Notes under the pieces: generated by a model
Told to the model about the DNA's origin: nothing
The model's input: only the letters and a program-made list of their open reading frames with translations
Database searches by the model: none
Position numbers and translations under genes: made by a program
Shown: piece after piece, positions 7,882-10,744 of the stretch
Layout: each line of letters starts with the position of its first letter
Position numbering within the stretch: the stretch's first letter is position 1
Source: Catellatospora methionotrophica
Lineage (GTDB): Bacteria > Actinomycetota > Actinomycetes > Mycobacteriales > Micromonosporaceae
Length of the DNA: 64,000 nucleotides
NCBI RefSeq assembly: GCF_011297335.1
Contig: NZ_JAAOTJ010000026.1
Span: 1-64,000 of the forward strand
Reading direction: 5' to 3'

Positions 7882-8092
7882 AGAGGTTTCCTTCTGGTCA
7901 GGGTGGGCCGATCGCCGAGCCGCGATCAGCGAAAACGGACCGTAACAACAGCCCCACCCGTGGACAACCGCCACAAAGACGATCCCGGGTCATCCCGACA
8001 GCCAGCGTCGACCCGCCCGGCGGTATCGATGCGACGTAGGCGCACCCGGCGGGTTACCATCGACACCACCGGACGACAACGAAGGAGGAGCC

Positions 8093-8152
8093 ATGACCCA
8101 CGCGCTCCCCATGTCGTTCGTAGTACGCGTAGCCGACTCGGGCCGCGCGTAA
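8093..8152 (+). CDS. valS leader peptide (19 aa) with three GTA valine codons
   Basis: A 19-codon open frame encoding MTHALPMSFVVRVADSGRA. It has the best ribosome site in the area (GAAGGAGGAGCC just before the ATG) and ends 84 bases before the valS start. Codons 10, 11 and 13 are all GTA, a rare valine codon in such GC-rich genomes. A translated short frame with rare codons for the cognate amino acid ahead of an aminoacyl-tRNA synthetase is the hallmark of a ribosome-mediated attenuator: low charged Val-tRNA would stall the ribosome and favour valS expression. The sequence features are seen; the regulatory role is inferred. It is not a T-box: no T-box or specifier-loop consensus was found. 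Confidence 0.7.
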   Translation: MTHALPMSFVVRVADSGRA

Positions 8153-8162
8153 TCCTTCGATC

Positions 8163-8184
8163 GCCGCGCCCCAGGGCGCGTGGC
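8163..8184 (+). promoter_or_regulatory. GC-rich hairpin between leader peptide and valS
   Basis: CGCGCCC (8165-8171) can pair with GGGCGCG (8174-8180), 10 bases after the leader stop codon. It could be the terminator or ribosome-masking arm of an attenuator. No U tract follows, so Rho-independent termination is not certain. Alternative pairing with the leader's GGCCGCGCG end (8141-8149) is possible. Confidence 0.4.
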
Positions 8185-8236
8185 GGTCACCCAGCCTCTC
8201 TCGCGTTCGGGCGCCTATCCCCACCGAGGTGAGGTC

Positions 8237-10744
8237 ATGAGCCTTCCGGACAAGCCGACCATCGACGGTCTGCCCGACAAGTGGGCACAGCGCTGGGAAT
8301 CCGAGCGTGTGTACCGCTTCGACCGTGCCGCACCCCGCGAGCGCGTGTTCGCCATCGACACCCCGCCCCCGACCGCCAGCGGTTCGCTGCACGTGGGGCA
8401 CGTGTTCTCGTACAGCCAGACCGACATGATCGCCCGCTACCAGCGGATGCGCGGGCGGGCCGTGTTCTATCCGATGGGCTGGGACGACAACGGGCTGCCC
8501 ACCGAGCGACGGGTGCAGCAGTTCTACGGGGTGCGCTGCGACCCGTCGCTGCCGTACGACCCTGGGTACACGCCGCCCGACAAGCCCGGCAGGCAGCAGG
8601 TGCCGGTGTCGCGGCGTAACTTCATCGAGCTGTGCGAGCGGCTGACCGCGCAGGACGAGGTGGCGTTCGAGCACGTGTGGCGGGTGGTGGGTCTGTCGGT
8701 GGACTGGTCGCTGCTGTACACGACGATCGGCACGCGGGCCCGTGCGGTGTCGCAGCGGGCGTTCCTGCGGGCGCTGGCGCGCGGGGACGCCTACCCGGCG
8801 CAGGCGCCGACGCTGTGGGACACCACGTTCCGGACCGCGGTGGCGCAGGCCGAACTGGAGGATCGGGACCGCCCGGGGGCGTACCACCGGCTGGTGTTCC
8901 ACCCGGATGGGACCGGAGCCGAGCCGATCACCGTGGCCACGACGCGGCCGGAACTGCTGCCCGCCTGCGTGGCGCTGGTGGCGCACCCGGACGACGAGCG
9001 TTACCGGCCGCTGTTCGGCAGCACGGTGCGCACGCCGCTGTTCGGCGCGCGGGTGCCGGTGCTGGCGCACCGGCTGGCCGACCCGGCCAAGGGCACCGGC
9101 ATCGCGATGGTGTGCACGTTCGGCGACACCACCGACGTGATCTGGTGGCGCGAGCTGGACCTGCCCATCCGGCCGGTGCTGGGCTTCGACGGCCGGTTCG
9201 CCCCCGACGCCCCGGAGGGGCTGTCCGAGGACGGCCGGGCGGCCTACGCGGGCCTGGCGGGTGCGACCGTGCACACCGGACGCGAGCGGATCACCGCGCT
9301 GCTGCGCGACAGCGGCGAACTGCTCGGCGAGCCGGAGCCGATCACGCACCCGGTGAAGTTCTACGAGCGCGGCGACAAGCCGCTGGAGATCGTGTCGACC
9401 CGGCAGTGGTACATCCGCAACGGCGGGCGTGACGAGGCGCTGCGCGCCCGGCTGCGCGAGCGCGGCCAGGAGCTGACCTGGCAGCCCGCGCACATGCGCA
9501 CCCGCTACGAGCACTGGGTGGACGGGCTGGCCGGGGACTGGCTGATCAGCCGCCAGCGCTTCTTCGGCGTGCCGATCCCGGTGTGGTATCCGCTGGACGC
9601 CGACGGCCTGCCCGACCACGACCGGCCGATCACGCCCGGCGAGCACGCGCTGCCGGTGGACCCCAGTTCGGACACCCCGCCGGGGTACGCCGAGGAACAG
9701 CGCAACCGGCCCGGCGGGTTCACCGCCGACCCTGACGTGATGGACACCTGGGCGACGTCCTCGCTGACGCCGCAGATCGCCGGCGGCTGGGGCTTCGACG
9801 ACGACCTATTCGCCCGGGTGTTCCCGATGGACCTGCGCCCGCAGTCCCACGAGATCATCCGTACCTGGCTGTTCGCCACGGTGCTGCGCGGGCACACCGA
9901 GCACGACACGCTCCCCTGGCGTACGGCGACGATCGCGGGCTGGATCCTCGACCCGGACCGCAAGAAGATGTCCAAGTCGGTCGGCAACGTGGTCACGCCG
10001 CTGGACGTGCTGGCCGAGCACGGGTCCGACGCGGTGCGCTACTGGGCGGCGGCGGCCCGGCCGGGGGCCGACACGGCGTACGACACCGGGCAGATGCGGG
10101 TGGGCCGCCGCCTCGCGATGAAGATCCTGAACGCGACGCGCTTCGTGCTGGGCCTGGGCGAACCCGGTCCGGCCGCCGCGGTGACCGAGCCGCTGGACCG
10201 GGCCCTGCTGGGCGCGCTGCAGCCGGTGATCGCCGAGGCGACCACGGCCCTGGACGCGTACGACCAGAGCCGGGCCCTGGAGGCCGCTGAGCGCTTCTTC
10301 TGGCTGTTCTGCGACGACTACCTGGAACTGGTGAAGCAGCGCGCGTACGGCCAGCACGGCCCCGAGGGCGCGGACTCGGCGCGGCTCGCCCTGCGCACCG
10401 CGCTGTCGGTGCTGCTGCGGCTGCTCGCCCCGGTGCTGCCGTTTGTGACCGAGGAGGCCTGGTCGTGGTGGCAGCCCGGTTCGATCCACGCCGCCGGCTG
10501 GCCCACCCCGTCCGACCTGGACGGCGCGGCCGGCGACCCCGCCCCGCTGGCCGCCGCGACCGCCGCGATCGAGGCGGTGCGCCGCGCGAAGTCCGCGGCG
10601 AAGGTGTCCATGCGCACCCCGCTGAGCCTGCTGACCGCCCCGTCCGGAGACCCCTTCTCGCTCATCGAGCAGGACGTCCGCGACGCCGGGGTGATCACCG
10701 CCGTCACCCGTCACCCGTCCCCCGCCTACCTCGCCCAGGTCTGA
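8237..10744 (+). CDS. valS: Valyl-tRNA synthetase
   Basis: Charges tRNA-Val with valine; cytoplasmic class I synthetase of 835 residues, within the range of the shorter actinobacterial ValRS type. The HIGH motif appears as LHVGH (residues ~53-57) and KMSKS as KKMSKSVGN (~577). The catalytic-core block MGWDDNGLPTERR and the CP1 editing domain (TTRPELL, around residue 236) are clear. The ATG at 8237 has GAGGTGAGG just upstream. The preceding leader peptide with GTA codons suggests regulation by valine charging. A strong hairpin at 10751 ends the transcript. Confidence 0.96.
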   Translation: MSLPDKPTIDGLPDKWAQRWESERVYRFDRAAPRERVFAIDTPPPTASGSLHVGHVFSYSQTDMIARYQRMRGRAVFYPMGWDDNGLPTERRVQQFYGVRCDPSLPYDPGYTPPDKPGRQQVPVSRRNFIELCERLTAQDEVAFEHVWRVVGLSVDWSLLYTTIGTRARAVSQRAFLRALARGDAYPAQAPTLWDTTFRTAVAQAELEDRDRPGAYHRLVFHPDGTGAEPITVATTRPELLPACVALVAHPDDERYRPLFGSTVRTPLFGARVPVLAHRLADPAKGTGIAMVCTFGDTTDVIWWRELDLPIRPVLGFDGRFAPDAPEGLSEDGRAAYAGLAGATVHTGRERITALLRDSGELLGEPEPITHPVKFYERGDKPLEIVSTRQWYIRNGGRDEALRARLRERGQELTWQPAHMRTRYEHWVDGLAGDWLISRQRFFGVPIPVWYPLDADGLPDHDRPITPGEHALPVDPSSDTPPGYAEEQRNRPGGFTADPDVMDTWATSSLTPQIAGGWGFDDDLFARVFPMDLRPQSHEIIRTWLFATVLRGHTEHDTLPWRTATIAGWILDPDRKKMSKSVGNVVTPLDVLAEHGSDAVRYWAAAARPGADTAYDTGQMRVGRRLAMKILNATRFVLGLGEPGPAAAVTEPLDRALLGALQPVIAEATTALDAYDQSRALEAAERFFWLFCDDYLELVKQRAYGQHGPEGADSARLALRTALSVLLRLLAPVLPFVTEEAWSWWQPGSIHAAGWPTPSDLDGAAGDPAPLAAATAAIEAVRRAKSAAKVSMRTPLSLLTAPSGDPFSLIEQDVRDAGVITAVTRHPSPAYLAQV

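Follow-up and report, generated by a model that had tools for sequence, protein, structure and literature searches.

The stretch of DNA analysed here, hereafter called the window, comprises 64,000 nucleotides of Catellatospora methionotrophica (contig NZ_JAAOTJ010000026.1, positions 1 to 64,000) and contains a gene for a valyl-tRNA synthetase, here valS or alt_valS, which is preceded by a short open reading frame (ORF) with a Val-Val-Arg-Val stretch, the VVRV leader. The region from 8093 to 8188 is quite probably a leader-peptide attenuator which senses the charging of Val-tRNA and serves this gene, encoding an auxiliary synthetase. The features of the locus are as follows.

8055 to 8060, forward strand: candidate -10 box TACCAT of the leader and valS transcript, a TANNNT match and putative promoter element
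8083 to 8088, forward strand: ribosome site AGGAGG of the leader, read from the sequence and present in 11 of 11 loci of the genus
8093 to 8152, forward strand: leader peptide MTHALPMSFVVRVADSGRA followed by a stop codon, from translation of the frame; conserved in 14 loci and four genera
8120 to 8131, forward strand: putative regulatory codons GTA GTA CGC GTA (Val Val Arg Val), read as Val-Val-Arg-Val in 14 of 14 loci
8124 to 8151, forward strand: hairpin 1:2 of the model alignment, Val codons (8124 to 8134) paired to the last part of the leader and its stop codon (8141 to 8151)
8140 to 8173, forward strand: candidate alternative pairing 2:3 (8140 to 8147 with 8165 to 8173), weak, with six of eight pairs formed in the window
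8159 to 8188, forward strand: hairpin 3:4 after the leader stop, from its stability z and compensatory changes
8194 to 8234, forward strand: hairpin predicted from minimum-energy folds to pair the valS ribosome site GAGGTGAGG (8226 to 8234)
8237 to 10744, forward strand: auxiliary valyl-tRNA synthetase alt_ValS (NF000540), from profile score and codon count; 0 GTA, 5 GTC and 50 GTG codons

The leader has 19 residues, its codons 10, 11 and 13 are GTA (8120-8122, 8123-8125 and 8129-8131), and 84 nucleotides lie between its stop codon and the valS ATG at 8237. A preliminary description of this DNA had reported the frame, its ribosome site, three GTA codons within the VVRV stretch, a GC-rich hairpin after the stop and the distance of 84 bases, all of which were found again in the sequence. 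Its statement that GTA is rare also held, as GTA accounted for 40 of 17,360 codons (0.23 %) and for 40 of 1,391 valine codons in 39 ORFs of the window, valS included, which were picked by codon-position GC content and some of which are possibly not real genes. In a six-frame scan of the window, three GTA per four codons occurred at two places, the leader and a site near 892, where on our own reading the opposite strand encodes Pro-Tyr-Tyr-Tyr.

The protein encoded behind the leader scored 1408.2 bits against the NCBIfam family alt_ValS (cut-off 900), of which it is a member, and 554.5 bits against TIGR00422 valS, under the cut-off of 612.1. A second ValS, of the canonical type and with 33 % identity to the window protein, is encoded elsewhere in the same genome (C7:203652-205775). 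The leader therefore precedes an auxiliary synthetase: the gene does encode a valyl-tRNA synthetase, as described earlier, but it is alt_valS rather than canonical valS. Among 150 genomes drawn from the family, Micromonosporaceae, alt_ValS was present in 121 (E up to 1e-150), canonical ValS in 145 and both in 118. No Val-rich stretch was found in the 400 nucleotides upstream of the canonical valS of the own genome. This gene (L002) has a TAGACT box 7 nucleotides before its GTG start and may be leaderless.

All 11 genomes analysed from the genus (g1), locus L016 included, carry the VVRV leader ahead of alt_valS, as does one genome each of the genera g17, g19 and g42. The start, the frame and Val-Val-Arg-Val are retained in all 14 loci over these four genera, with a leader length of 19, 21 or 17 residues, so that the frame has been kept through changes in length. 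The first Val codon, which lies outside the modelled helices, is GTA in six and GTC in eight of the 14 loci, and thus always encodes valine. Between genera, identity is 85-91 % over the 33 nucleotides from the Val codons to the stop, 43-57 % in the first part of the leader and 47-63 % in the spacer. The 14 alt_valS genes behind these leaders form one clade (100/100) in a tree of 49 rows; L026, whose translation from the match start was truncated, was left out of the tree and of the codon counts given below, and L016 enters both without its first codons. In L010, L013 and L014 there is an in-frame start further upstream; the start behind AGGAGG was used.

At a limit of E 0.01, a covariance model built from nine loci had matches in 26 of the 354 genomes of the family, 14 of them true matches (E ≤ 1.1e-15) and 12 weak. 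The strong matches were one per genome, except that G028 also gave an antisense echo of this hairpin. Two of the weak matches (L215 and L216) were inspected and rejected as homologues, and the other ten were in family genomes at E 0.0016 to 0.0087. Among 394 genomes of the class, the model matched only the own genome at 1e-4. Upstream regions of alt_valS were in addition flagged when three GTA or five Val occurred within eight codons. Eight of 100 such regions from other genera were flagged (one each in g17, g19 and g42, three in g39, and L154 and L172), as were two (L067 and L084) from 80 named relatives. The Val-rich stretches in L154 and L172, of the family, and in the named L067 and L084 were taken as unrelated; a script search found no small ORF at that of L154. 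The reading of leaders outside the genus covered 112 alt_valS places of the family, except 11.

A second, unlike Val-rich leader lies ahead of alt_valS in four of four genomes of genus g39 (L197-L200). It has 34 codons, ends 70-102 nucleotides before the alt_valS match and reads MATTANPMNRAP...VVEVCGVRVRRVRVAG or near variants of this, the VVEVCGVRVRRVRVAG stretch at its end containing four or five GTA codons. The RNA folds differ from those of the VVRV type. The g39 alt_ValS proteins form a separate clade (100/100) in the same 49-row tree, which does not separate one origin of the leaders from two.

Valine codons, as counted in the sequences, are partitioned between leader and gene, GTA being the codon of the leader and missing from the gene presumed to be regulated. 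The 18 leader-bearing alt_valS genes contain no GTA, 113 GTC, 845 GTG and 6 GTT codons (964 Val codons, 88 % GTG); 19 family genes without a leader contain 41 GTA, 565 GTC, 642 GTG and 16 GTT, with GTA present in all 19. GTA was absent from 18 of 18 leader-bearing genes versus 14 of 99 genes without a leader, and a GTG/(GTG+GTC) of at least 0.85 was reached by 15 of 18 versus none of the 99. Valine was the only amino acid whose codons were clearly shifted in alt_valS compared with the other ORFs of the window (p 6e-8; the next, leucine, 0.06). Seven of the 18 genomes were tested in the same way, two of the genus, those of g17, g19 and g42, and two of g39, with backgrounds outside the window taken from 20 kb stretches of 10 to 36 ORFs each. 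In all seven, alt_valS had the highest GTG share of any gene with at least 15 Val, and valine had the smallest p of eight amino acids (chi-square p 1e-5 to 1e-14). The GTG share was not raised in two control genomes without the leader (0.48 versus 0.46 and 0.37 versus 0.50); in one of these, G118, valine differed (p 0.01) towards less GTG, and leucine differed in both. In the own genome neither the canonical valS (3 GTA, 32 GTC, 37 GTG) showed shifted valine codons nor ilvC a shift to GTG.

Valine codons were also preserved at conserved residues. The window gene has the identical codon at 31 of 32 conserved Val residues compared with g17, at 29 of 34 compared with g19 and at 29 of 36 compared with g42; in these comparisons codon identity for the other amino acids was 0.38-0.60, apart from one value of 0.73 for Thr. 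In four pairs between genera within this clade the Val codon was kept at 81-97 % of conserved residues, and the codons of other amino acids at 34-60 % (once 73 %), whereas Val codon identity was 0.44-0.56 in four pairs without the leader. The Val content was 6.5 % in leader-bearing proteins versus 7.9 % in the 99 others; leucine and alanine contents differ too. Three genes without these leader types, L072 and L108 (Acidimicrobiia) and L086 (from the metagenome-assembled genome of an unclassified bacterium), had a GTG preference well above that of their other codon boxes, and another regulator may act on them.

Between leader and gene lies a conserved predicted hairpin, 3:4, the pairing of which has been kept by compensatory changes. 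It has -23.0 kcal/mol in the window (z -2.8 versus shuffles), and in each of the 14 loci its stability exceeds that of shuffled sequence (z -2.1 to -5.4). In the alignment, which has 10 distinct rows and, having been fitted to the model, leans towards it, 96.9 % of the cells of hairpin 3:4 are paired and both partners have changed in three of 13 pairs. At least as many such pairs arose in 26 of 500 shuffles; the covariation score was reached by one of 500. For the whole model 97.8 % of cells pair, which none of 500 shuffles reached. Hairpin 1:2 is paired in 99 % of cells, but as it is nearly invariant (eight of ten pairs never vary), covariation provides no test of it. Two pairs of 2:3 have changed on both sides, in the g17 locus only, and 11 of 500 shuffles reach that. 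A TTCGGGCGCC block at 8206-8215, before valS, is kept in most relatives, differs in L010 and L011, and shows partial complementarity to the 5' arm and the loop of hairpin 3:4.

The proposal that the leader peptide senses the charging of Val-tRNA would account for leaders rich in valine, their use of GTA, the auxiliary nature of the gene and the lack of GTA within it. A ribosome would translate the short leader and, when charged Val-tRNA for GTA is scarce, would stall in the Val-Val-Arg-Val stretch; the stalled ribosome would alter the folding of the RNA ahead, and alt_valS would be expressed. When charged tRNA is plentiful, the ribosome would reach the stop codon, hairpin 3:4 and the hairpin at the valS ribosome site would form, and expression would stay low. 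Stalling would presumably drive the switch, and the output step could be either termination of transcription or a block of translation. An attenuator had been suggested in the preliminary description, which named alignment across relatives as the check and a lack of conservation of the frame or of its Val codons as a refutation. That refutation failed, since frame and Val codons are conserved in 14 of 14 loci; together with the hairpin and the codon partition, this speaks for an attenuator.

By standard decoding rules GTA depends on the TAC tRNA alone, and GTG can be decoded by both the CAC and the TAC tRNA. Since the synthetase gene consists almost entirely of GTG at its valine codons, it may be translatable during the very shortage that would induce it. 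A further reading is a two-sided valine codon code, in which the sensor uses the codon that is first to fail and the backup synthetase one that still works, so that the cell could rebuild its charging enzyme during the shortage; the chances that such a code exists appear about even. The pattern was seen with two unlike leaders in two clades.

Several observations weigh against the attenuator. The GTA codons at 8123 and 8129 lie inside hairpin 1:2, and their conservation may therefore partly reflect RNA structure. A strong 2:3 antiterminator was sought in g1, the genus of the window, and its duplex energy was no better than that of shuffled sequence. There is no U-tract after hairpin 3:4, the sequence past 8188 being ACCCAGCCTCTCT. 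Nine loci were folded with a ribosome in place. When it was set at the first Val codon, 3:4 persisted in the minimum-energy fold of eight and gave way to 2:3 in g17 only; when it was set at the stop codon, its footprint cut into part of 3:4, which formed in six of nine and was replaced by another fold in L014, L016 and L196. Among the codon results, three of the four g39 genes have a GTG/(GTG+GTC) of 0.71-0.73, within the range of genes without a leader, and the Val codon identity of L199 and L197, both of g39, hardly stands out (0.69). The shift was not purely valine-specific, as serine (g17, g19), arginine (g19), alanine (G087) and glycine (G069) were also shifted at p < 0.01, far more weakly than valine. 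Finally, the leader-bearing genes are related, belonging to two clades, and the p-values thus overstate their independence.

If the output step were attenuation of transcription, hairpin 3:4 would be a terminator without a U-tract, as in some Streptomyces leaders, and this falls only just short of an even chance. The elements are arranged as in a classical attenuator, hairpin 3:4 is conserved with compensatory changes, and, according to an excerpt of PMC8079986, the trpS leader of S. lividans has two hairpins and no uridine-enriched sequence. The missing U-tract and the weakness of 2:3 in g1 count against termination.

It is also plausible, if not quite to be expected, that the ribosome on the leader controls translation, by way of the hairpin which pairs the ribosome-binding site of valS. 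The six-mer of this site is predicted to be unpaired at 0.02 in the window and at a mean of 0.14 in the 14 leader loci, compared with 0.43 in 29 loci without the leader (those which passed the site filter, of 94 tried), although this comparison takes no account of kinship. Hairpin 3:4 without a U-tract would fit such a switch, and the ileS T-boxes of Actinobacteria are thought to act on translation (PMC1262725, in the part available). Against it, the g17 site is mostly unpaired (0.67), the pairing partner varies, being on our own reading of the folds an upstream CCTC in g1 and CCCC in g17, g19 and g42, and no consistent fold was found in which stalling frees the site.

A different explanation for the GTG-rich gene is an isoacceptor preference of the enzyme itself: alt_ValRS may charge the CAC tRNA-Val best and thereby secure its own translation, which would be compatible with attenuation. 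The own genome has one tRNA-Val gene each with the anticodons TAC, GAC and CAC (ARAGORN, at loci covering its 57 tRNA matches). However, relatives of alt_ValS without the leader show no such codon shift, so the shift tracks the leader rather than the enzyme family, and the explanation is unlikely. Less likely still, indeed improbable, is that the leader is translated just to hold ribosomes near valS, for reinitiation or coupling, and that its Val codons serve RNA structure. The second and third GTA codons do sit in hairpin 1:2, but the first Val codon lies outside it and varies between GTA and GTC while still encoding valine in 14 of 14 loci, the unlike leader of g39 is Val-rich as well, and the codon of the leader is absent from the gene. 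Short frames are common in GC-rich DNA, but a chance frame in a GC-rich intergenic region is refuted by the conservation of the leader in 14 loci over four genera.

Among the open-licence PubMed Central articles retrieved on leader peptides, attenuation, valS or duplicated synthetases, none described a valine leader before valS in its title or the start of its abstract. Vecchione and Sello (2010, cited in PMC4787780) reportedly found that an auxiliary, antibiotic-resistant TrpRS gene of S. coelicolor is under ribosome-mediated attenuation. This, the closest known system, resembles that of the window in that a leader peptide containing cognate codons controls an additional synthetase gene, but it uses tryptophan and a different RNA, whereas in the window the amino acid is valine, the gene lacks the codon of the leader and no resistance is known. 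T-boxes bind tRNA directly. A T-box or other known RNA family was rejected for the window, where no Rfam family reached its gathering score. The ileS T-box of Actinobacteria, as given in an excerpt of PMC1262725, is similar in that RNA controls a synthetase according to tRNA charging; it has no leader peptide, whereas the system of the window has one, and no Rfam match.

The same excerpt reports actinobacterial attenuators ahead of trp, trpS and leuS but mentions none ahead of valS, and no Micromonosporaceae are among the genomes listed there. In S. lividans eight leaders are reported, including those before leuS, trpS, alaS and thrS, several of them leaderless (PMC8079986, in part), and the term valS is absent from that text. 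These Streptomyces leaders are like that of the window in being short and containing cognate codons, several being leaderless and some lacking a U-tract, while the window adds valS, of which neither source, as far as excerpted, contains a case. According to the theory of selective charging (PMC1183508), the codon found in leaders is the one that responds most strongly to shortage, and an isoacceptor remains charged if it is abundant and its codons are little used; how sensitive GTA is would thus depend on tRNA levels. This theory (Elf and Ehrenberg 2005) explains why attenuation leaders have biased and shortage-sensitive codons; the gene in the window shows the mirror image of that bias, strongest for one amino acid. 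If the proposal is true, valine is a further amino acid that is sensed through a leader peptide ahead of a synthetase gene, with the sensor tied to a backup enzyme; a two-sided codon code would in addition allow selective charging of tRNA isoacceptors to be tested in a natural pair of genes. The codon partition would then reveal from sequence alone the codons that fail when charging is under stress, and could guide the search for further synthetase genes that are stress-proofed.

A promoter presumably lies upstream of the leader. Of the 14 loci, 13 had a TANNNT box within the 45 nucleotides scanned ahead of the leader start, at -37 to -41 in 10 of 11 loci of the genus; L016 had none within this distance. 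In g17, g19 and g42 (L189, L195 and L196) the box is at -13 and the start codon follows exactly 7 nucleotides after it, without AGGAGG, suggesting that these leaders are likely to be carried on leaderless transcripts. Elsewhere in the own genome, a tRNA-like gene with a four-base anticodon call (gcaa) was observed at C21:18493-18565 (L269).
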